The position numbers and the translations under genes were made by a program. The notes below the pieces were generated by a model. That model saw nothing but the letters and a program-made list of their open reading frames with translations. It was not told where the DNA came from and did not search any database. Below, piece by piece: positions 46,701 to 56,260 of a stretch of 64,000 nt of DNA (its first letter is position 1; each line of letters begins with the position of its first letter). Source of the DNA: Providencia vermicola (GTDB lineage Bacteria > Pseudomonadota > Gammaproteobacteria > Enterobacterales > Enterobacteriaceae); the NCBI RefSeq assembly GCF_020381325.1, contig NZ_JAGSPI010000010.1, positions 124,001 through 188,000 on the forward strand, written 5' to 3'.

Positions 46701-46970
46701 TCATTTACCTTTATTTTCAGATGATAATCATTATCATCCATTTGCAAATGGTGCTAAAATAACCCAAGACCGGTTTTATTATCATTGCCATTCTCAGAAT
46801 AACTTCAGCAAATTATAAATAGAAAACAGCAAGATATTATTAAATTTGGGCGATAAAGACTTGTCTGATACAGCTTGCGACTAAAAACGCTATTATTACA
46901 TTACATACAATAAGGTAATAAACAAAAACATCCGCCGTTACCCCTTAAACAACAATAAAGAGAAGGCCTT
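46701..46970. promoter_or_regulatory. Control region of the yqiJ-flotillin-ATPase-rhomboid cluster
   Basis: This 270-bp region contains a Fur box at 46720-46738 and, 16 bp after it, an extended -10-like TGCTAAAAT, so Fur could block that promoter. A long leader of about 200 nt would precede yqiJ; it has no open gene and no RyhB-like core that I recognise. GAAGG (46962-46966) is the ribosome binding site for yqiJ. Confidence 0.6.
46720..46738. promoter_or_regulatory. Fur box
   Basis: GATGATAATCATTATCATC is a perfect inverted repeat around a single central base. It contains TGATAAT-C-ATTATCA, the exact 7-1-7 Fur recognition core. It is 232 bp upstream of yqiJ and 60 bp after nagK. Confidence 0.8.
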
Positions 46971-47606
46971 ATGGGATTGTTTTTTCAGAATAGTTTGATG
47001 TTTCCCACCATTGTTTTTAGTGGATTACTCATTATTGTTTTATTTTACTGGTTATGTGCAGCATTTGGCTTACTCGATATTGATGTCTTTAATATTGATA
47101 CCGAATTCGATGCAGGGCTTGATGCTTCAGGGTTCGCGGGCTGGCTCACCAAACTGGGCTTAGCGGGGATCCCTGTTACCATTATTCTAACCTTATTTAC
47201 GCTATTTGGCTGGGTTATCAGCTACTTTTGCGTTTATGGCTTTATCCGTTTTATTGATTCAACCCTATTACGCTACCTTGTTGGCTTTGCCGTATTTGCC
47301 ATCACACTGTTTATTTCCCTTCATCTCACTGCTTTATGTTTAAAACCCGTTCGTAAAAAACTGGTCAGCCTCAATAAACCCAAAACCGTACATCAGCTTA
47401 TTGGCAAATTAGCGACTGTACGTTCAGGGTCAGTGAGTGAACAAAATGGGGAAGCGATGTTAGAAGATGGCGGTGCAGGGTTAATTTTACAGATACGCGC
47501 ACCATCAACCGAGAATTTAAAGCGAGGCGATCGCGTCGTTATTATTAGCTATGACGCGCAGTCCCACAGTTACCAAGTCGTGACGGAAGATGAGTTCCGT
47601 CATTAG
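46971..47606 (+). CDS. yqiJ: YqiJ family membrane protein (NfeD-like OB fold)
   Basis: This 211-residue protein has three transmembrane segments (about residues 12-35, 60-90 and 100-125). A C-terminal OB-fold-like region (about 140-208; LIGKLATVRSGSVSEQNGEAM, GDRVVIISYD) resembles NfeD proteins that partner with flotillins. Length matches E. coli YqiJ (209). It is the first gene of the cluster; the flotillin gene follows after 76 bp with its own ribosome binding site. Its role is probably assembly of the flotillin complex (family-based inference). Confidence 0.88.
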   Translation: MGLFFQNSLMFPTIVFSGLLIIVLFYWLCAAFGLLDIDVFNIDTEFDAGLDASGFAGWLTKLGLAGIPVTIILTLFTLFGWVISYFCVYGFIRFIDSTLLRYLVGFAVFAITLFISLHLTALCLKPVRKKLVSLNKPKTVHQLIGKLATVRSGSVSEQNGEAMLEDGGAGLILQIRAPSTENLKRGDRVVIISYDAQSHSYQVVTEDEFRH

Positions 47607-47682
47607 TTTTCACGATATAGACAATAAACCTTTGCTTGCCTATTTAAAATAACGACCTCGTCGGAACCTATGGAGAAGAAAT

Positions 47683-49884
47683 ATGGATTTGGCTGCATTA
47701 ATGCCCTTTTTAACCATTATTGGCGGGATCATCGTCATTATTTTAGGCTTCTTTGGATTATTTAAAGCCTTCTATATCAAAGTCCCACAAGGTACCGCAT
47801 TGATTGTGAACGACATGTCGTCACAACCCAAAGTGCATTTCACAGGTGCGCTGGTTTATCCTGTTATCTATAAAAAAGAATTTATGCGAATTTCACTTCT
47901 AACATTAGAAGTGGATCGCCGTGGTAAAGACGGTTTAATTTGCCATGATAACTTGCGTGCGGATATCACTGTTGCTTTTTACTTACGTGTAAATGAAACC
48001 ACTGAAGACGTATTGAAAGTAGCAAAAGCTATTGGGGTTGACCGCGCTTCTGACCACCAAGCCGTCAGCACCTTATTTAGTGCAAAATTCTCTGAAGCAC
48101 TAAAAACAGTCGGTAAACAGTTTGATTTAGCAAAACTTTTTGAAGATCGCCAAAACTTCCGTGACCGCATCGTTGATGTGATTGGTAAAGACCTTAATGG
48201 CTATGCATTAGAAGACGTTGCCATTGACTATTTAGAGCAAACACCGAAATCTGCTCTTGACCCAAACAATATCTTTGACTCTGAAGGTATTCGTAAAATC
48301 ACTGAAATTACTGCTATCCATAACATTGAAACGAACCAAAAAGAACGTGACCAAGAGTTAGCGATTCAAAAGAAAAATGTGGAAACACGCGAAGCCAGTT
48401 TAGCACTAGAACGCCAACAAGCGGATGCGGAAGCACGTCAAAAGCGTGAAATTGATAATATTCGTTCCCGTGAACAAGCCGAAACACTGCGTGTTCAAGA
48501 AGAAGAACGCTTAAAATCGGAACAAGCACGTATACAAACTCAGCAAGAAATTGAGATTCGTGAAGAAAACCGAATGCGTGAAGTTGAAGTTGCTCAACAA
48601 AACCGCACCCGTGCCGTAGCCATTGAAGAAGAACGCGTTAGTCGCGCACGAGAACTTGAAATCGTTGCCCGTGAGCGTGAAGTTGAGCTACAACGCATTG
48701 AAAAAGAAAAAGCATTAGAAGAAGAACGCAAAAACATCTCGAATGTGATCCGTGAACGTGTTGCCGTTGAAAAAACCGTCGCACAGGAAGAAGAACGTAT
48801 TAAAGAAGTCCGTGAAGTGTCTGAAGCTGATCGTATGCGCCAAGTTACTGTAATCAACGCACAAGCCGAAGCTGAAGAGTTATTGGTTCGCCAAGTGAAG
48901 AGAGCCGAAGCCGATGAAGCGAGCGCTAAACACAAAGCGGAAGAAATCAGCACCATGGCACAAGCTGAATTAGAAGCCTCAGCCAAACAAGCAGAAGCGA
49001 AAAAACGCTTAGCAGAAGGGATTGAAGCTGAACACGCTGCGTTAGGTTTAGCAGAAGCCCGCGTTCGCCAAGCGACTGCTGAAGCAGAAGAAAAAGAAGG
49101 TTTAGTACTAGCCAATATTACCGCCGAAAAACTGTTAGCAGAAGCACGTGGCTTGAAAGAAAAAGGTTTAACCGAAGCACAAGTCATGGAAGCCAAAGCG
49201 AAAGCAGAGCAACAACAAGGGCTTGCTGAAGCCAAAATCCTCGAAGAGAAATTAGCAGCGCAAGCGCGTGGTGAAGAACAACAAGCCAACGCAAAAGAAA
49301 AATTAGGTTTAGCGGATGCAAAAGTCCTTGAAGAGAAACTGGCAGCACAAGCTCGAGGTGAAGGCCAGTTAGGTTCAGCACAAGCGGAAGTTATTCGTCA
49401 GCGCCTGAAAGCTGAAGCAGACGGCTTAACTGACAAATTCAAATCCATGGATCACCTCAGCGATACCGCACGTTCCCATGAAGAATTCCGTATGCGCCTT
49501 GAGAAAGAATTTGAACAAGCTATGGCATCTATCGATGCCAATAAAGAAATCGCTCGTGAGCAAGCGGATGTCTTGGCTGCAGCGCTTAGCAAAACCAATA
49601 TCGAAATTGTGGGCGGCGATGGTAACTTCTTCAACACCTTCTCTAAAGCACTTAGCTTAGGTAAGGCTGTCGATGGCTTTATGGATAAAAGCAGCTTCGC
49701 CAAAGAAAATGTGGAAAAACTGATTAACCGCAGTAAGGAAGATAAAAAAATCGATATTGCCGCTTTACTGAAAAACCCTGAAGTTCAAGACCTAATCAAT
49801 GGCTTTATGGCTGCAAAAGGCGCTGGACAATTAGCAAAAACCGTAACGGCAAAACCCGTTCCACCCGCTGATGACCAACTTTAG
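47683..49884 (+). CDS. yqiK: Flotillin-like protein (YqiK family) with extended coiled coil
   Basis: This 733-residue protein is clearly longer than E. coli YqiK (553 as I recall). One N-terminal transmembrane segment (residues 5-30) leads into an SPFH/band-7 domain (about 30-210; VPQGTALIVND, AIGVDRASDHQAVSTLF). A very long Glu/Ala/Arg-rich coiled coil follows (about 215-600). Within it a 29-residue unit repeats in tandem (EAKILEEKLAAQARGEEQ at about 516, DAKVLEEKLAAQARGEGQ at about 545). The C-terminal part (600-733) contains IEIVGGDGNFFNTFSKALSLG. Flotillins form ring- or cage-like membrane scaffolds. The extra coiled coil probably binds the adjacent coiled-coil ATPase. Confidence 0.9.
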   Translation: MDLAALMPFLTIIGGIIVIILGFFGLFKAFYIKVPQGTALIVNDMSSQPKVHFTGALVYPVIYKKEFMRISLLTLEVDRRGKDGLICHDNLRADITVAFYLRVNETTEDVLKVAKAIGVDRASDHQAVSTLFSAKFSEALKTVGKQFDLAKLFEDRQNFRDRIVDVIGKDLNGYALEDVAIDYLEQTPKSALDPNNIFDSEGIRKITEITAIHNIETNQKERDQELAIQKKNVETREASLALERQQADAEARQKREIDNIRSREQAETLRVQEEERLKSEQARIQTQQEIEIREENRMREVEVAQQNRTRAVAIEEERVSRARELEIVAREREVELQRIEKEKALEEERKNISNVIRERVAVEKTVAQEEERIKEVREVSEADRMRQVTVINAQAEAEELLVRQVKRAEADEASAKHKAEEISTMAQAELEASAKQAEAKKRLAEGIEAEHAALGLAEARVRQATAEAEEKEGLVLANITAEKLLAEARGLKEKGLTEAQVMEAKAKAEQQQGLAEAKILEEKLAAQARGEEQQANAKEKLGLADAKVLEEKLAAQARGEGQLGSAQAEVIRQRLKAEADGLTDKFKSMDHLSDTARSHEEFRMRLEKEFEQAMASIDANKEIAREQADVLAAALSKTNIEIVGGDGNFFNTFSKALSLGKAVDGFMDKSSFAKENVEKLINRSKEDKKIDIAALLKNPEVQDLINGFMAAKGAGQLAKTVTAKPVPPADDQL

Positions 49885-50118
49885 TTAATCAAAATCTGAG
49901 GGGCATTTTTTGCCCTTCAGACTGCTGACAAACTGATTAGGTTTGGCAGCAGGTTGGATTGGTTTTGAAAATAGACAAGGAAAATCAATTTATTGATTTT
50001 CGGCTGATAACACAAAGCAGGAAAAACCACGCTTTTATCCTGCTTTGTCAACAACCTCAGGGGCATTTTTGCCCCTATTGCCTTTTTTTTCATCCACTTT
50101 AAGGGAATTCGCTGCACC
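49885..50118 (+). other. Structured spacer: five consecutive inverted repeats
   Basis: Five stem-forming elements follow each other. TCTGAGGGGC/GCCCTTCAGA is at 49895-49921. CTGCTGACAAAC/GTTTGGCAGCAG is at 49922-49952 (one mismatch). AAAATCAAT/ATTGATTTT is at 49981-50000. ACAAAGCAGGA/TCCTGCTTTGT is at 50012-50048. AGGGGC/GCCCCT is at 50059-50076, followed by a T8 run at 50083-50090. The first and last share AGGGGCATTTTT-GCCC, suggesting duplication. The last looks like a true terminator or attenuator limiting ATPase expression relative to flotillin. Confidence 0.7.
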
Positions 50119-53100
50119 ATGTCAGATTTTCAGGAAACGGATCGCGAGCAAGAAATACTCGATAGCGCTGTTGCAGAAGGGGGCGCTTATGACATTTTAC
50201 GTAAGCGGCTGACCGAACAAGGCCAGCAACTTCACCAAAAAGCCATACAGCTCAATGAAAAACGCCTAGAAGAATTTGGTCAAAGCCAAATGGATATTAT
50301 TGGGCGTATTCGTATTCGTACTGAAAATAACTGCCAAGCCCGAGATATTGTTCGAGTGGGTGAATGGTTGTTATTTGGCTATAACGTTTTCCTTGGATTA
50401 AAAAAAGAAACGCACCTCAATGATGTATTTTCATTGTATCGATTGATTGAAAATGAAGGCGAATTTGATGTTGAAGCCGTCGATAATGAAGATACCTTTT
50501 TAAATGATACTCGGTTTATTCAGGATTTTACTGAGCTCTATACCTATTATAAAAACACCCAATTACTGCAACTTGTAGAGCGTGATGGCAAACTGCTGGC
50601 TAGCTTTCAAATCGGCGACCGCATTACCGATGTCCGCGTTTTTCGTTGGTCAATCTCAAGTGACAAACAACGTATTGAATACATTGATAATCGAGGGGAA
50701 CGCGATATCGCCCTTCCCCCTGCTTATGACTTTGAGTGGCAAAAAACCACGCGCGAAGACACCGTAAATGGCCGTTACCCTCACATTAATATCCTCGATA
50801 CCGTATTTGTTGAAACTATCGGTGGCGACTTAACCATTAAGTGTGAAAATAACACAGAAGATGGTTTGGGGATTTATCGTGAAGCAGTACTGGATAAAAA
50901 CCAGTCCCTCGACGATGCGCAAATTGAATATGCCCAAACGGGCAGCCTGATTATTTTAAAGATTTTACCTTATCGGGAAGAAAGCTGGCGCTATCTGGTT
51001 TACAACACACTGACCCAGTCTGTACAACGCATTGATGCCATTGGGCAGGCTTGCGTTCAGCTCCCTGAAGATCACGGTATTATTTTCCCAGGGGGGTATT
51101 ACCTACAAAGTGGGGAATATAAAACCTTTGAGCAGCCAATGGATGGCATGCGTTTTCGCCGCTTACGTCGCTCACCAAATGGGGAGGACGTTTTATATGT
51201 GTTTTACTCCCCCAATCAAGGCCGTATTGCACTTTTTAACTACAACCTAATTGAACGCACCCTGTCTGTTCCATTGATTGGGCACGGTTATGCCATGCTT
51301 GAAGATGGCAAAATGGTTCTGTTCGAAGGTGAAGGGGAAGAAGCCACTCGCGTCCATCCAATGCAAGTGTGGCAAACACCTTTTTATTCTGATGAATTTG
51401 CGGATAAGCAACCTACTCGAGGGGGCTTTTTTGGCCGAATTGGTAACGCAGATTTAGTCCGTGGCATTTCTGAAATATTGCATGTTGCCAAAGAGATTGA
51501 AGGCAATCATGTTTCTATCGCCCGCTATGAGCAGCTCAGCCAGCAACCTAAAAATTTATTGGATTTATACTATTGGTTTAGCGATGAGCAATGCTTAGAA
51601 ATTGGTAAGTTACTGAAAGAAATCACGCAAACCAGTGAATTAGTGCTTGATGAATATGAAAAGGTAGAAAGCATCCGCCAGCAGTCGGCTAAATCGATGA
51701 ATGAAGCCATTAGCCGCCAGAAATCACTATTATCGCTAACATTACCCGATAGCTGGGATGATATTCAGCAATTTGTTGATGGTTTAAATGCCCTAAACGC
51801 ACAACGCGGGCACTTGATTTCGCTGCGTGAATTTCGCTATATGGATTTAGAAAAACTGAGTGAAATGGAAGGCGAAATTGAAAAAAATCAACAATATGTC
51901 TCCCAAGAAACCGCCGTTTTTCTGGCTAGCGATAAAGCGCTACAACCTTTCAAAGCACAATTAACCGTTTTTGAAGAACAAACCGAAAAAGCACAAAACA
52001 GCGCCCAATTAGATATCCCAATGAATGACATGGAAAAAATGTCAGCAGATTTGGATATGCTATCTAATTTAATGGCTTCACTGTCATTCAATGATGTGAC
52101 ACAACAAACCCACATCATTGATTCTATCTCACAAATTTATGCACAGCTGAATCAGTCACGGGCTCGCTTACAACAGAAACGAAAGTCCCAAACCAGCGTT
52201 GAAACCGTGGCGCAGTTTGGCGCACAATTTCGTTTATTTAGCCAAGGGATCACCAATGCATTGTCCCTTGCGACAGACCCTGAGCGTTGTGATGATCAGC
52301 TATCAAGATTACTGGTTCAATTAGAAGAACTGGAAAGCCAGTTTAGTGGCCACGATGAGTTTCTTGATGATATCTTAGCCAAGCGCGAAGAGTTACTTGA
52401 AACCTTTGAATCTCATAAACAAATTCTCATTGATGACCGCCAGCGCCGTGCACAAAATCTGTTAACTGCCGCTGACCGCTTACTCGATAGCTTGCAACGC
52501 AGAACCACCCGCCTGCAATCTCAAGATGAGCTAAATGCATTTTTTGCCTCAGACCCCCTTGCGTTAAAAACGCGAGAAATCATCGAAAAACTGAGAGAGA
52601 TTAACGACAATGTTAAAGCCGATGATATCGATGCTCGCTTAAAAGCATCTCGTGACCAAGCTATTCGCATTCTGCGTGATAAAACCGATATTTTTGAAGA
52701 TGGCGGTAATATCATCAAATTGGGTCGCCATCGATTTAGCGTTAACACGCAAGAGCTAGACCTCACTATCTTGCCTAAAAATAACCAACTCTGGGTATAT
52801 CTCACGGGTACGGATTTTCAGGAACCGATTGAAAATGAAGAGCTCACGCAGCTACAGCCTTATTGGACGGCAACCTTAGAATCTGAGTCAGAGACAGTTT
52901 ATCGCGCTGAATACCTTGCTTATTCGATTATTTATTCTGCCGCTAAACGCCAAGACGAACTCAACATGGCGTTGTTAACCAGCGCGTTAACCTCCCCTGA
53001 AAAGCTGGAAAAAATCGTGCGCGATTTTGCAGGCCCACGCTACAAAGAAGGCTATGAAAAAGGGATTCACGACCACGATGCCATTGCAATCTTAAAAAAA

Positions 53101-55059
53101 TTAATCCCTGTCGGGGAGAGTGCCGATCTTCTTCGTTATAACCCGACTGCGCGTGCAATTGCAGCGATTTACTGGGAAATAGCCCAAAACGAAGAGTTCC
53201 CCGCTCTTTGGCCTGAACGTGCTAGAACAGCGATGAACATTCATCAACTGTTCCATAATGATAATGCCTTACTCGACCTACAAGCGGAAATTGAAGCTAA
53301 TATCAGTTTGTTTTTACAAGATAATCCTATTCAATGCCAAAGTTATGAGCAAACACAAGCTGCGGAATATCTGAGCTTTGCATTAGCACGAACGCCTATC
53401 GAACTGGTCTACAGTAAATATGCAAAAGAACTCGTTCTAGCGTTACAAGAGCGCTTAGAAGAAGCTCACATGTGGCTCGACTTCAATCGTTCCCAACAAA
53501 ATTTAGGCACACGCTACGCCCAACGTTGGTCACTTATTCAAAATTGGCTGCAAGGGCTGTGCTCAACCCCTGAATTCGCACATCTAGTACCTTACATACC
53601 TGGTGCAATTGCCATTATTATTTTAGATAAAGTGGCTTCTGTCCGTTACAGCGAAGCTGATCTTTACTTTAAAGTCAGTGGTTTACTGGGAGAACACCCA
53701 ACCATTGAAAACCAAACGCTATCACTCAGCTTAGATAATTACTTTAGCCGGATGCGTGGCCAGCGAAAACGCTTTATACCTGAATTCCGCCAATACCAAG
53801 CTTTGCGACAACGCATCGTAACAGAGGAACGTAGCCGCTTAAAATTACATGAGTTCAAAGCTAAGCCATTGAGCTCTTTCGTACGTAACAAGCTGATTAA
53901 TGATGTCTACTTACCCATTATTGGCGATAACATGGCGAAGCAAATCGGCGCACTCGGTGAAGGAAAACGTACCGACTTAATGGGGCTACTGTTAATGATC
54001 TCCCCACCTGGTTACGGTAAAACTACCTTAATGGAATACGCCGCTGATCGCTTGGGGCTGATTTTCATGAAAGTAAATGGTCCTGCTCTGGGTCATGATG
54101 TGCTTTCCCTTGACCCTGCACAGGCACCGAATGCTACCGCGAGGCAAGAGCTAGAAAAACTGAATTTAGCCCTTGAAATGGGAAATAACGTCATGCTGTA
54201 TGTGGATGACATCCAACATACACACCCTGAATTCTTACAGAAATTCATTTCCCTGTGTGATGGAACACGGCGTATTGAAGGGGTTTGGAAAAACAAAACC
54301 AAAACCTATGATATGCGCGGCAAAAAATTCTGTGTGGTGATGGCAGGGAACCCCTATACCGAATCTGGCGAAGTGTTCCGTATCCCTGATATGTTAGCTA
54401 ACCGTGCCGATATCTATAACCTCGGGGAAGTATTAGGTGGGATGGATGAGGCTTTCGCATTAAGCTATATCGAAAATAGCTTGACCTCTAACCCCGTTTT
54501 AGCCCCTTTGGCACTCAGAGATCTCAATGACTTATATCTCCTTGTGGATAAAGCCATGGGGAAATCGGTTTCAACCAATACACTGAGTTACCCTTACTCT
54601 GACGCCGAAATAAACGAAATAGTTTTAGTCATCAAACAATTAGTTAAACTTCGCGACATTGTGTTAAAGGTCAATCAGCAATATATTGCCAGCGCAGCTC
54701 AATCGGACAAATACCGCACTGAACCTGCATTTCGCTTACAAGGTAGTTACCGAAATATGAATAAACTCAGTGAAAAAGTCTCTTCTGTTATGAATGATGA
54801 AGAGCTGGAGCGGCTATTAGATGATCACTACCTCGGTGAAGCGCAATTGCTCACCACGGGTGCAGAGGAAAATTTATTAAAACTCGCAGAGTTACGAGGA
54901 ACACTAACCGAAAAAGAAGCCGCACGCTGGCAACAAATCAAGAAAGACTTTATGCGGAATAAAGCCCTTGGCGGTGATAATACCGATATTGGTGACCGAG
55001 TGGTTGTCCAACTCGCCTCTTTAGTCGAAAGTGTTCAAGCATTAGGTAAAGCCGAATGA
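50119..55059 (+). CDS. Giant coiled-coil AAA+ ATPase ('DNA repair ATPase'-type)
   Basis: This is a 1646-residue cytoplasmic protein. Residues 1-60 are coiled coil; about 60-430 is a beta-rich region with repeated short strands, possibly propeller-like. About 480-880 holds long coiled-coil segments, then a mostly helical region to 1250. The AAA+ module has Walker A in MISPPGYGKTTLMEYAADRL (about 1293-1312), Walker B in VMLYVDDIQHTHPEF (about 1356-1370), a sensor-1 Asn in VVMAGNPYTESG, and arginine-finger-like NRADIY. Homologues carry the vague label 'DNA repair ATPase' as I remember; I see no nuclease or helicase motif. Its operon position suggests a flotillin-recruited remodelling ATPase. The rhomboid gene overlaps its stop. 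Confidence 0.8.
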   Translation: MSDFQETDREQEILDSAVAEGGAYDILRKRLTEQGQQLHQKAIQLNEKRLEEFGQSQMDIIGRIRIRTENNCQARDIVRVGEWLLFGYNVFLGLKKETHLNDVFSLYRLIENEGEFDVEAVDNEDTFLNDTRFIQDFTELYTYYKNTQLLQLVERDGKLLASFQIGDRITDVRVFRWSISSDKQRIEYIDNRGERDIALPPAYDFEWQKTTREDTVNGRYPHINILDTVFVETIGGDLTIKCENNTEDGLGIYREAVLDKNQSLDDAQIEYAQTGSLIILKILPYREESWRYLVYNTLTQSVQRIDAIGQACVQLPEDHGIIFPGGYYLQSGEYKTFEQPMDGMRFRRLRRSPNGEDVLYVFYSPNQGRIALFNYNLIERTLSVPLIGHGYAMLEDGKMVLFEGEGEEATRVHPMQVWQTPFYSDEFADKQPTRGGFFGRIGNADLVRGISEILHVAKEIEGNHVSIARYEQLSQQPKNLLDLYYWFSDEQCLEIGKLLKEITQTSELVLDEYEKVESIRQQSAKSMNEAISRQKSLLSLTLPDSWDDIQQFVDGLNALNAQRGHLISLREFRYMDLEKLSEMEGEIEKNQQYVSQETAVFLASDKALQPFKAQLTVFEEQTEKAQNSAQLDIPMNDMEKMSADLDMLSNLMASLSFNDVTQQTHIIDSISQIYAQLNQSRARLQQKRKSQTSVETVAQFGAQFRLFSQGITNALSLATDPERCDDQLSRLLVQLEELESQFSGHDEFLDDILAKREELLETFESHKQILIDDRQRRAQNLLTAADRLLDSLQRRTTRLQSQDELNAFFASDPLALKTREIIEKLREINDNVKADDIDARLKASRDQAIRILRDKTDIFEDGGNIIKLGRHRFSVNTQELDLTILPKNNQLWVYLTGTDFQEPIENEELTQLQPYWTATLESESETVYRAEYLAYSIIYSAAKRQDELNMALLTSALTSPEKLEKIVRDFAGPRYKEGYEKGIHDHDAIAILKKLIPVGESADLLRYNPTARAIAAIYWEIAQNEEFPALWPERARTAMNIHQLFHNDNALLDLQAEIEANISLFLQDNPIQCQSYEQTQAAEYLSFALARTPIELVYSKYAKELVLALQERLEEAHMWLDFNRSQQNLGTRYAQRWSLIQNWLQGLCSTPEFAHLVPYIPGAIAIIILDKVASVRYSEADLYFKVSGLLGEHPTIENQTLSLSLDNYFSRMRGQRKRFIPEFRQYQALRQRIVTEERSRLKLHEFKAKPLSSFVRNKLINDVYLPIIGDNMAKQIGALGEGKRTDLMGLLLMISPPGYGKTTLMEYAADRLGLIFMKVNGPALGHDVLSLDPAQAPNATARQELEKLNLALEMGNNVMLYVDDIQHTHPEFLQKFISLCDGTRRIEGVWKNKTKTYDMRGKKFCVVMAGNPYTESGEVFRIPDMLANRADIYNLGEVLGGMDEAFALSYIENSLTSNPVLAPLALRDLNDLYLLVDKAMGKSVSTNTLSYPYSDAEINEIVLVIKQLVKLRDIVLKVNQQYIASAAQSDKYRTEPAFRLQGSYRNMNKLSEKVSSVMNDEELERLLDDHYLGEAQLLTTGAEENLLKLAELRGTLTEKEAARWQQIKKDFMRNKALGGDNTDIGDRVVVQLASLVESVQALGKAE

Positions 55060-55622
55060 AATACCCCCGCGTGACACTATTAGTCGCTTTAGTTGCTCTA
55101 TTAAGTAGCATTCAGTTGATTAATAGCCTAACGGCGGGTGAGCTTATTCATTTTGGTATTGTCCCTCGTACTCTTAGTGGGTTGATAGGGATTTTGTTTG
55201 CCCCTTTTATTCACGGAAGTTGGGATCACTTATTCAGTAATCTTCCGCCACTGATTATACTCAGTGCCCTATTACTCCATCGCACCATCAAGTTTTATCT
55301 CGTTGCTTCACTATTCATTATTGTTGTTGGCGGGCTGATGGTATGGCTAGTAGGCCGTAATGCCGTACATGTTGGCGCGAGTGGTTGGATTTTTGGGTTG
55401 TGGGGGTTGTTGATTGCCCAAGTTTTTTTGCGCCGTAAACTCGCTGATATCGCCATCGCATTGTTAGTCTTATTTTATTTCGGTGCAATGGCGACTGGCT
55501 TATTACCCGTTCATCAATATATTTCGACAGAATCCCATATTGCGGGCGCGTTATCGGGTATTTTGTTTGCTTGGTTGATCAACAAAAGGGAAAAAAACCG
55601 TCAACCCACTGAAATACGGTAA
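55056..55622 (+). CDS. Rhomboid family intramembrane serine protease
   Basis: This 188-residue protein has six transmembrane segments. The catalytic Ser is in VGASGWIFG (GxSG) and the catalytic His in ESHIAGALSG, with HGSWDHLFSN upstream in the expected L1/TM2 position. It is a compact bacterial rhomboid. Its ATG overlaps the ATPase stop (ATGA), so the two are translationally coupled. Its 3' end overlaps the convergent regulator gene by 22 bp. Substrates are unknown; YqiJ or the flotillin are candidates by context. Confidence 0.88.
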   Translation: MKYPRVTLLVALVALLSSIQLINSLTAGELIHFGIVPRTLSGLIGILFAPFIHGSWDHLFSNLPPLIILSALLLHRTIKFYLVASLFIIVVGGLMVWLVGRNAVHVGASGWIFGLWGLLIAQVFLRRKLADIAIALLVLFYFGAMATGLLPVHQYISTESHIAGALSGILFAWLINKREKNRQPTEIR

Positions 55623-56260
55623 ACACAACGCCCAGCACCCTCTAACAAATACTGTTCACGTTCAATACTCGCCTCGCTGCCTATCACTTCTTGAAAAAGT
55701 GCTAACTCTGAGCGGCAAAAATTTTGGCAAGCCGTTGCGGCGGCGCAAATAGGGCAATGGTTCTCAATAAAGAGCCAATCTTCACCCTCTTGCTCAACTT
55801 TTGCCATATAGCCTTCTTCGCTACGCACTTCGGCTAATGCGGCAAGGCACTCAGCTAACGGTAAATTTTGGCAGCGGGCAATATATTTTTCATGGCTTTC
55901 AATCTCTCTTTGGTGAATAAGCTTTTCCAAGCCATCATCGCCAAAAATAGTTCGGACAGAATCAATCAGCTGCAATGCAAGCTGAGCGTGAGTGTCAGGG
56001 AAACGCTGATGCCCCAATTCAGTTAACACCCAATTTTGCCGTGGCCGGCCAGCCCCTGTTTGTGATAAACACTGAGCCCCTTCAACTAACCCCATCGAAG
56101 TCAGTTTTTGAATATGTTGCCTTGCGGCTTCCCCTGTCATATTTAAATCGTTAGCAATCACTGACGTCGAAATCGGCCCTTTGGTTTTAATACAAAAAAG
56201 CACTTTATCGACGGCTTGTGTTAGATTTAAATTATCAAAGTAATTACTTGCATTAATCAT
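55601..56260 (-). CDS. SufR-like iron-sulfur winged-helix transcriptional regulator
   Basis: This 219-residue regulator has an N-terminal winged helix (residues 15-80; SVIANDLNMTGEAARQHIQKL). A C-terminal cysteine cluster follows with Cys169, Cys172, Cys178, Cys182 and Cys212 (HCPICAAATACQNFC...GRC), the pattern by which SufR-type repressors hold an iron-sulfur cluster. A 28-bp palindromic site lies between it and the divergent MFS gene, so autoregulation and control of the transporter are likely. The sensed signal could be redox, iron or a metal. Confidence 0.8.
   Translation of the reverse strand: MINASNYFDNLNLTQAVDKVLFCIKTKGPISTSVIANDLNMTGEAARQHIQKLTSMGLVEGAQCLSQTGAGRPRQNWVLTELGHQRFPDTHAQLALQLIDSVRTIFGDDGLEKLIHQREIESHEKYIARCQNLPLAECLAALAEVRSEEGYMAKVEQEGEDWLFIENHCPICAAATACQNFCRSELALFQEVIGSEASIEREQYLLEGAGRCVYRISVG

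Follow-up and report, generated by a model that had tools for sequence, protein, structure and literature searches.

The window, i.e. the whole 64,000-nt stretch of Providencia DNA analysed here, contains four consecutive genes on the forward strand that encode a YqiJ-type membrane protein, the flotillin YqiK, a giant AAA+ ATPase and a rhomboid protease (Table 1). This gene set, with a Fur box ahead of it, had been described in the initial annotation, and it was confirmed by the open reading frame coordinates, by family searches and by a scan for the box.

Table 1. Genes and predicted regulatory features at the yqiJ-yqiK-ATPase-rhomboid locus, in window positions.
Feature	Position	Strand	Description
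Fur box, exact 7-1-7	46722-46736	.	TGATAATCATTATCA; pattern scan of window and genome
Promoter-like site	46731-46760	+	9/12, extended -10; overlaps the Fur box
yqiJ	46971-47606	+	211-aa membrane protein, NfeD2/YqiJ type, three hydrophobic segments
yqiK	47683-49884	+	733-aa flotillin with a hydrophobic segment at the N-terminus, an SPFH domain and an extended coiled coil
First hairpin in the yqiK-ATPase gap	49895-49921	+	
Terminator-like hairpin with T run	50059-50092 (stem 50059-50076)	+	Proposed attenuator
Giant AAA+ ATPase gene	50119-55059	+	1646 aa: DUF3686 (residues 38-485), DUF7902 (606-690), AAA_5 (1291-1414)
Rhomboid protease gene	55056-55622	+	188 aa; Ser109/His161, HxxxxHLxxN; ATGA overlap with the ATPase stop
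SufR-like regulator gene	55601-56260	-	C-terminal cysteines; convergent with the rhomboid gene, 22-nt overlap at the 3′ end

The assignment of the first protein as YqiJ rests on its hydrophobic segments and on the place of its gene ahead of the flotillin gene; its similarity to the Pfam family YqiJ_N is weak (E 0.59). Full-length YqiK had no match in Pfam or among solved structures, and residues 1-239 searched separately matched Band_7 with an E of 1.3e-6, exceeding the Pfam cut-off. A distant blastn search of E. coli genomes with the SPFH part of the flotillin gave no match. The ATPase domains were identified by Pfam with E values of 1e-202 (DUF3686), 6e-24 (DUF7902) and 3e-5 (AAA_5). In an alignment of 50 ATPases the Walker A motif (SPPGYGKTT) and most of Walker B (VMLYVDDIQ) were invariant, and in all 50 Walker B ends at residues 1363-1364 with Asp-Asp instead of the usual Asp-Glu. 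No peptidase domain, M41 included, was found in the ATPase with Pfam at E ≤0.01. The sequence was also read by eye with FtsH for comparison, and it has no obvious aromatic pore loop.

Further loci with this ATPase were collected from several sources. The first was a search of genome contigs with the window ATPase, which yielded 31 loci. Searches for DUF3686 matched 7 of 149 genomes in the family, 7 of 321 in the class and 8 of 398 in the phylum, together with 11 of 58 relatives of genome G508 and 16 of 119 genomes in the genus of G640. The ATPase family is therefore patchy across genomes. Plasmid records with the ATPase numbered 12, eight of which were fetched. The final set, window included, comprised 80 ATPase loci with a protein of more than 1400 aa, 70 of them non-redundant at <97% identity. 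One Xenorhabdus szentirmaii locus (L039) fell outside the 70-locus count through the length filter; its ATPase gene and its yqiJ gene both come as two ORFs, which looks like decay or misreading.

In 69 of the 70 non-redundant loci (56 of 57 in an earlier set) the ATPase gene adjoins both yqiJ and yqiK, L052 being the exception. The ATPase is thus a near-obligate neighbour of yqiJK and not a sporadic one, which upholds the coupling of these genes proposed in the initial annotation. Triads of yqiJ, yqiK and ATPase genes occur in four phyla, namely Pseudomonadota, Verrucomicrobiota (L040), Deinococcota (L105, L111) and Actinomycetota (L108, L109); Hymenobacter was seen solely in a tally. The four proteins of the window gave no match to the PADLOC defence models, and no stretch of the viral contigs searched with ATPase patterns was matched. 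At some loci (L033, L053, L054, L112, L113, L115, L116, L119 and L123) a small EF-hand/TerB-like gene of 79-114 aa is located between the flotillin and ATPase genes.

In Pfam and NCBI the ATPase family carries the name 'ATPase involved in DNA repair'. A role in DNA repair would also agree with the raised mutation rates of a Shewanella flotillin mutant (PMC1468410) and with the presence of RuvB among the weak sequence matches. The C-terminal half of the ATPase compared with solved structures indeed gave weak Walker-A matches only, to p97, Rix7 and RuvB, and nothing better than E 0.2 was found for the N-terminal half. However, the RuvB matches (E 0.003-0.03) are no better than the p97-like ones, the authors of the Shewanella study explain the mutation rates by iron chemistry (PMC1468410), and the ATPase is a near-obligate partner of membrane scaffold genes. 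We thus consider a DNA-repair ATPase very unlikely.

The triad is frequently part of a wider operon. DUF2170 and PspA genes were scored by profile searches, simple gene calling having missed both in GC-rich loci. Among the 70 loci the recurring neighbours were DUF2170 (22 loci), PspA (23), a phospholipase-D protein (18) and the rhomboid (31), and all seven genes (DUF2170, PspA, YqiJ, YqiK, ATPase, rhomboid and PLD) were present in nine loci, mostly of Pseudomonas. In two loci of Vibrio and Photobacterium (L107, L110) the phospholipase-D gene abuts or overlaps the ATPase stop, the place taken by the rhomboid in other genomes. In pQBR103, a plasmid of SBW25, the triad comes immediately after DUF2491, DUF350, DUF1190 and glutathionylspermidine-synthase genes, which form the remainder of the yjf operon. 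DUF2170 was found in 19 of 26 ATPase-bearing genomes, with 0 of 7 in the window's family and 19 of 19 in the others. The window locus has neither DUF2170 nor PspA; its genome is devoid of DUF2170 and holds a single PspA elsewhere. Therefore, the window locus is an abbreviated form of the module.

Much of this composition is already published. Ravi 2024 (PMC11237479) describes a flotillin-YqiJ-AAA+ set with PspA/CesT and sometimes, in some Proteobacteria, a phospholipase-D hydrolase, and mentions abbreviated forms. The flotillin, the YqiJ-type protein and the AAA+ ATPase are common to that module and the window; the ATPase of Ravi 2024 is a beta-propeller/coiled-coil AAA+ protein, and that of the window is shown by Pfam as DUF3686/DUF7902/AAA_5. 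The full form of that module has CesT/Tir (DUF2170) and PspA, both of which the window locus lacks. Conversely, the main text of Ravi 2024 presents no rhomboid and no RNA element (the words 'rhomboid', 'protease' and 'intramembrane' are absent from it), and the paper is not known to treat a Fur site. The initial annotation, which knew of no system with such a composition, was thus mistaken as far as flotillin, YqiJ and ATPase are concerned, and only the rhomboid is absent from the published operon. No paper joining an ATPase of this type, a flotillin and a rhomboid was found in the open-licence PMC literature. While the triad and its PspA, DUF2170 and phospholipase-D genes are known, the rhomboid as a recurrent fourth part appears to be new.

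The published triad module very probably includes the bac operon of P. aeruginosa, in which bacA encodes a DUF2170 protein, bacB a PspA-like protein, bacC an NfeD-type protein, bacD a flotillin (PaFlo3, PMC13086221) and PA14_16190 a predicted ATPase (PMC2587700). RT-PCR links bacD to PA14_16190, indicating cotranscription (PMC10948618). Unlike the window locus, the bac operon has a sigma-54 site instead of a Fur box and contains DUF2170 and PspA (PMC2587700, PMC10948618). Mutants of bacA and pa3731 display biofilm and rhamnolipid defects (PMC10948618, PMC2587700), and single or multiple deletions of SPFH genes in P. aeruginosa are reported to cause no pronounced phenotype (PMC13086221), which speaks against the model proposed below.

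The recurrence of PspA genes suggests another reading, in which the ATPase would be a Vps4-like motor disassembling an ESCRT-III-like PspA/YjfJ polymer, with the flotillin as its membrane anchor, and the Providencia form would act on canonical PspA encoded elsewhere. ESCRT-like roles of PspA with AAA+ ATPases were suggested by Ravi 2024 (PMC11237479), and the PspA gene retained in the window's genome as well as the frequency of PspA and DUF2170 genes reported above agree with this reading. ATPases outside Enterobacterales (e.g. L033, L044) carry a helical-looking C-terminal tail of 90-210 residues. Of the 22 loci with DUF2170, 21 encode such a tail, compared with 14 of the 48 that lack DUF2170, and we keep as an idea that the tail is a possible docking site for DUF2170. 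However, this link comes down to 2-3 independent pairs versus 0 and is not significant once kinship is counted. Furthermore, the window's ATPase has no tail, and 47 of the 70 loci have no PspA. Overall, we regard the Vps4-like reading as rather improbable.

Next, we turned to the rhomboid. Its gene product matches Pfam Rhomboid with an E of 6e-18, whereas a profile of the rhomboid had no match among solved structures. Ser109, His161, His53/His58 and Asn62, which make up the Ser-His dyad and the oxyanion motif, were invariant in 35 of 35 aligned rhomboids including that of the window. The rhomboid lies beside the ATPase in 31 of 70 non-redundant loci, from Providencia, Xenorhabdus, Pragia, Pseudomonas, Exilibacterium and a Spongiibacteraceae bacterium, and is absent from 39, three of which have less than 1.5 kb of sequence downstream. 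Hence, of the four-family co-occurrence that the initial annotation proposed to check, the part joining the ATPase to yqiJK stood and the part concerning the rhomboid did not extend beyond these 31 loci. Among 18 Pseudomonas loci it follows the ATPase in 10. On the ATPase tree, the presence of the rhomboid changes at least 9 times among 50 loci (7 changes being forced by well-supported branches) and at least 11 times among 70, so it was gained or lost often. Its absence from more than half of the loci argues for an accessory part of the module.

This distribution also bears on the alternative that the functional unit is the published one of YqiJ, YqiK and the ATPase, with the rhomboid as an independent protease, PSP-linked or housekeeping, that shares the operon for expression only. 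In addition to the 39 loci without a rhomboid, in Proteus P. myxofaciens (G082) has a 60%-identical rhomboid beside nagK and its yqiJK-ATPase genes elsewhere; in Providencia nagK precedes yqiJ. A search of 70 genomes detected the rhomboid subfamily in 14 of 26 with the ATPase versus 7 of 44 without (Fisher p 0.001, uncorrected for kinship). The group of 26 leaves out three of the 29 ATPase-bearing genomes then known, and several of its members supplied the query; the 44 were hand-picked from the negatives. Two more genomes have the rhomboid in a yjf/PspA setting, behind yjfK-yjfL-yjfM-yjfC-like genes in G480 and divergent from DUF2170-PspA in G889, and it is therefore tied to the PSP-type system at large. 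On the other hand, the rhomboid starts within 60 nt behind the ATPase in 20 of 26 loci, with an overlap in 11, and in a second Pseudomonas set 8 of 8 rhomboids overlap the ATPase stop by 4 nt. The same order and tight spacing recur in distant lineages with different flanks. We consider a unit restricted to the three proteins the less probable outcome.

The best NCBIfam match of the rhomboid was the rhombosortase family TIGR03902, which would imply processing of GlyGly-CTERM proteins. The score of 30 bits is far under the cut-off of 84, and GlyGly-CTERM was found in 1 of 10 genomes with such a rhomboid and in none of the proteins of the window's genome. The rhombosortase assignment was thus rejected as extremely improbable.

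The Proteus ATPases (L019-L022, L029, L037, L038, L042) are 87-88% identical to that of the window and nest inside Providencia (supports 88 and 98), hinting at a transfer of the triad between Proteus and Providencia. Together with the nagK-linked rhomboid of P. myxofaciens, this would be accounted for most simply by a triad that was lost and regained, or else relocated, in Proteus. Downstream of the rhomboid, all nine other Providencia loci share the SufR-like gene of the window; in four of them it is 2.7 kb farther away, where a penicillin-amidase-like gene is inserted. Its product scored 107 bits against TIGR02702, which is under the cut-off of 178.8.

Between yqiK and the ATPase gene is a gap of 234 bp with two hairpins, one of them terminator-like, which the initial annotation does not mention; one uninterrupted transcript across both genes therefore cannot be assumed. 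Compared with shuffled sequence (60 shuffles per gap), the folding of this gap has a z-score of -5.7. Among 43 non-redundant yqiK-ATPase gaps of 30-450 nt the median z-score was -3.1, with z<-2 in 34. In the yqiJ-yqiK gaps of the same loci, used as a control, z<-2 was obtained in 1 of 38 with a median of +0.19, and 150-nt controls gave 9 of 49 upstream of yqiJ and 5 of 49 inside the ATPase gene; the gap comparison is imperfectly matched, since lengths differ and a few Pseudomonadota gaps hold the small EF-hand/TerB-like ORF. By our own pattern, 21 of the 43 gaps have a hairpin with a T run behind it, and a role as terminator is therefore not general. In six Proteus gaps two-sided changes keep the pairing at 3 of 15 stem pairs, and the pairing breaks at 3 others. 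As a general terminator scan was noisy (24 sites versus 10.4 expected), the argument for the hairpin rests on the comparison between gaps. The hairpin is probably an attenuator or processing site that sets the flotillin above the ATPase. The presence of such a hairpin between the genes for flotillin and ATPase is apparently new.

The exact Fur box TGATAATNATTATCA is the sole site in the window at ≤2 mismatches, with none itself, where 0.49 such sites are expected. The promoter-like site that overlaps it is weak alone (15 such sites in the region versus 19.1 expected). The genome of 4.24 Mb contains three exact 7-1-7 sites, and 19 at ≤1 mismatch versus 2 for the backwards pattern. The second exact site immediately precedes a sitA-like metal-transport gene; the third has a short ORF next to it and is located in a gap close to rsmC. 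The 7-1-7 form fits the box; the 19-bp Fur consensus had no match within 3 mismatches. Of nine other Providencia loci, two of which are near-copies (L049 of L017), seven carry the box with ≤2 mismatches within 400 bp upstream of yqiJ. The loci from P. vermicola and P. stuartii, with 3 and 4 mismatches, have a poor box or none. Three of the six Xenorhabdus loci reached the threshold of ≤2 mismatches, as did one Proteus locus, leaving 7 of 8 fetched Proteus loci without such a box. A general Fur link of the module was thus ruled out, the box being mainly confined to Providencia, and this distribution makes the predicted Fur control a trait of the Providencia lineage rather than of the module. 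The Fur connection made in the initial annotation was upheld for this lineage.

Knock-out of a Shewanella flotillin led to less free iron, less siderophore and more killing by peroxide (PMC1468410), which by analogy is consistent with an iron link. The amount of this flotillin was lowered rather than raised in a fur mutant of Shewanella (PMC1468410), and this does not fit plain Fur repression.

From the observed gene content and order, catalytic residues, conservation, hairpin and Fur site we infer every contact and activity of the following model. We propose, and judge the matter evenly balanced, that the genes encode a PSP-type membrane-surveillance module consisting of a scaffold, an ATPase motor and a rhomboid, tied to iron in Providencia. 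YqiJ and YqiK would form an oligomeric inner-membrane scaffold, as suggested by relatives such as QmcA-YbbJ, one of the pairs of SPFH proteins and NfeD partners that build cages (PMC13086221). The ATPase may be the dedicated motor of this scaffold: a putative beta-propeller/coiled-coil N-terminus would bring it to clients bound on the scaffold, and the AAA+ ring would remodel or extract membrane proteins or membrane-bound polymers. In full versions of the module the client or partner would be the ESCRT-III-like PspA with DUF2170 as chaperone, both of which the Providencia form appears to have lost from the locus. The co-encoded rhomboid would cut transmembrane substrates gathered in the same microdomain. 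The more specific proposals of the initial annotation, that the ATPase docks on the flotillin by its coiled coils and hands substrates to the rhomboid, were neither supported nor contradicted by the results. The hairpin after yqiK, as a conserved element, would pass part of the transcripts into the ATPase-rhomboid half, resulting in many scaffold subunits per motor. Finally, Fur would tie the Providencia version to iron limitation, and the module may be used in envelope stress.

HflKC-FtsH likewise joins an SPFH cage to an AAA+ partner, as we suggest for flotillin and ATPase, but FtsH is a protease and the system has no rhomboid. HflKC faces the periplasm (PMC2636767). In Bacillus subtilis, YqgP-FtsH shows a bacterial rhomboid at work with an AAA+ protein in the control of membrane proteins and metals; it differs in having no flotillin, in FtsH itself being a protease and in its unrelated genomic setting (PMC7231995). 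The closest composition is that of the mitochondrial SPY complex SLP2-PARL-YME1L, with an SPFH scaffold, a rhomboid and an AAA+ protein on one membrane (Wai 2016, cited in PMC13365137). YME1L is a membrane-bound metalloprotease, whereas no peptidase domain was detected in the window's ATPase; SLP2 is stomatin-like, and the Arabidopsis version of the complex is described without a rhomboid (PMC13365137). The likeness is an analogy only. More speculatively, and in our view doubtfully, the module could be a separately evolved bacterial counterpart of SLP2-PARL-YME1L, in which a flotillin cage confines a dedicated giant AAA+ remodeller and a rhomboid in one microdomain, an RNA attenuator conserved across phyla sets the ratio of motor to scaffold, and iron starvation switches the system on in Providencia.

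For bacterial flotillins, which are poorly understood, the proposed module would supply a dedicated partner that is driven by ATP and whose chemistry can be tested, and it would link a rhomboid without a known substrate to a defined membrane scaffold. The hairpin between scaffold and motor genes offers a simple explanation for how a single operon may yield a scaffold of many subunits along with a scarce motor. Should flotillin, ATPase and rhomboid act together, they would constitute a bacterial SPFH-AAA-rhomboid hub whose parts differ from those of the mitochondrial one.
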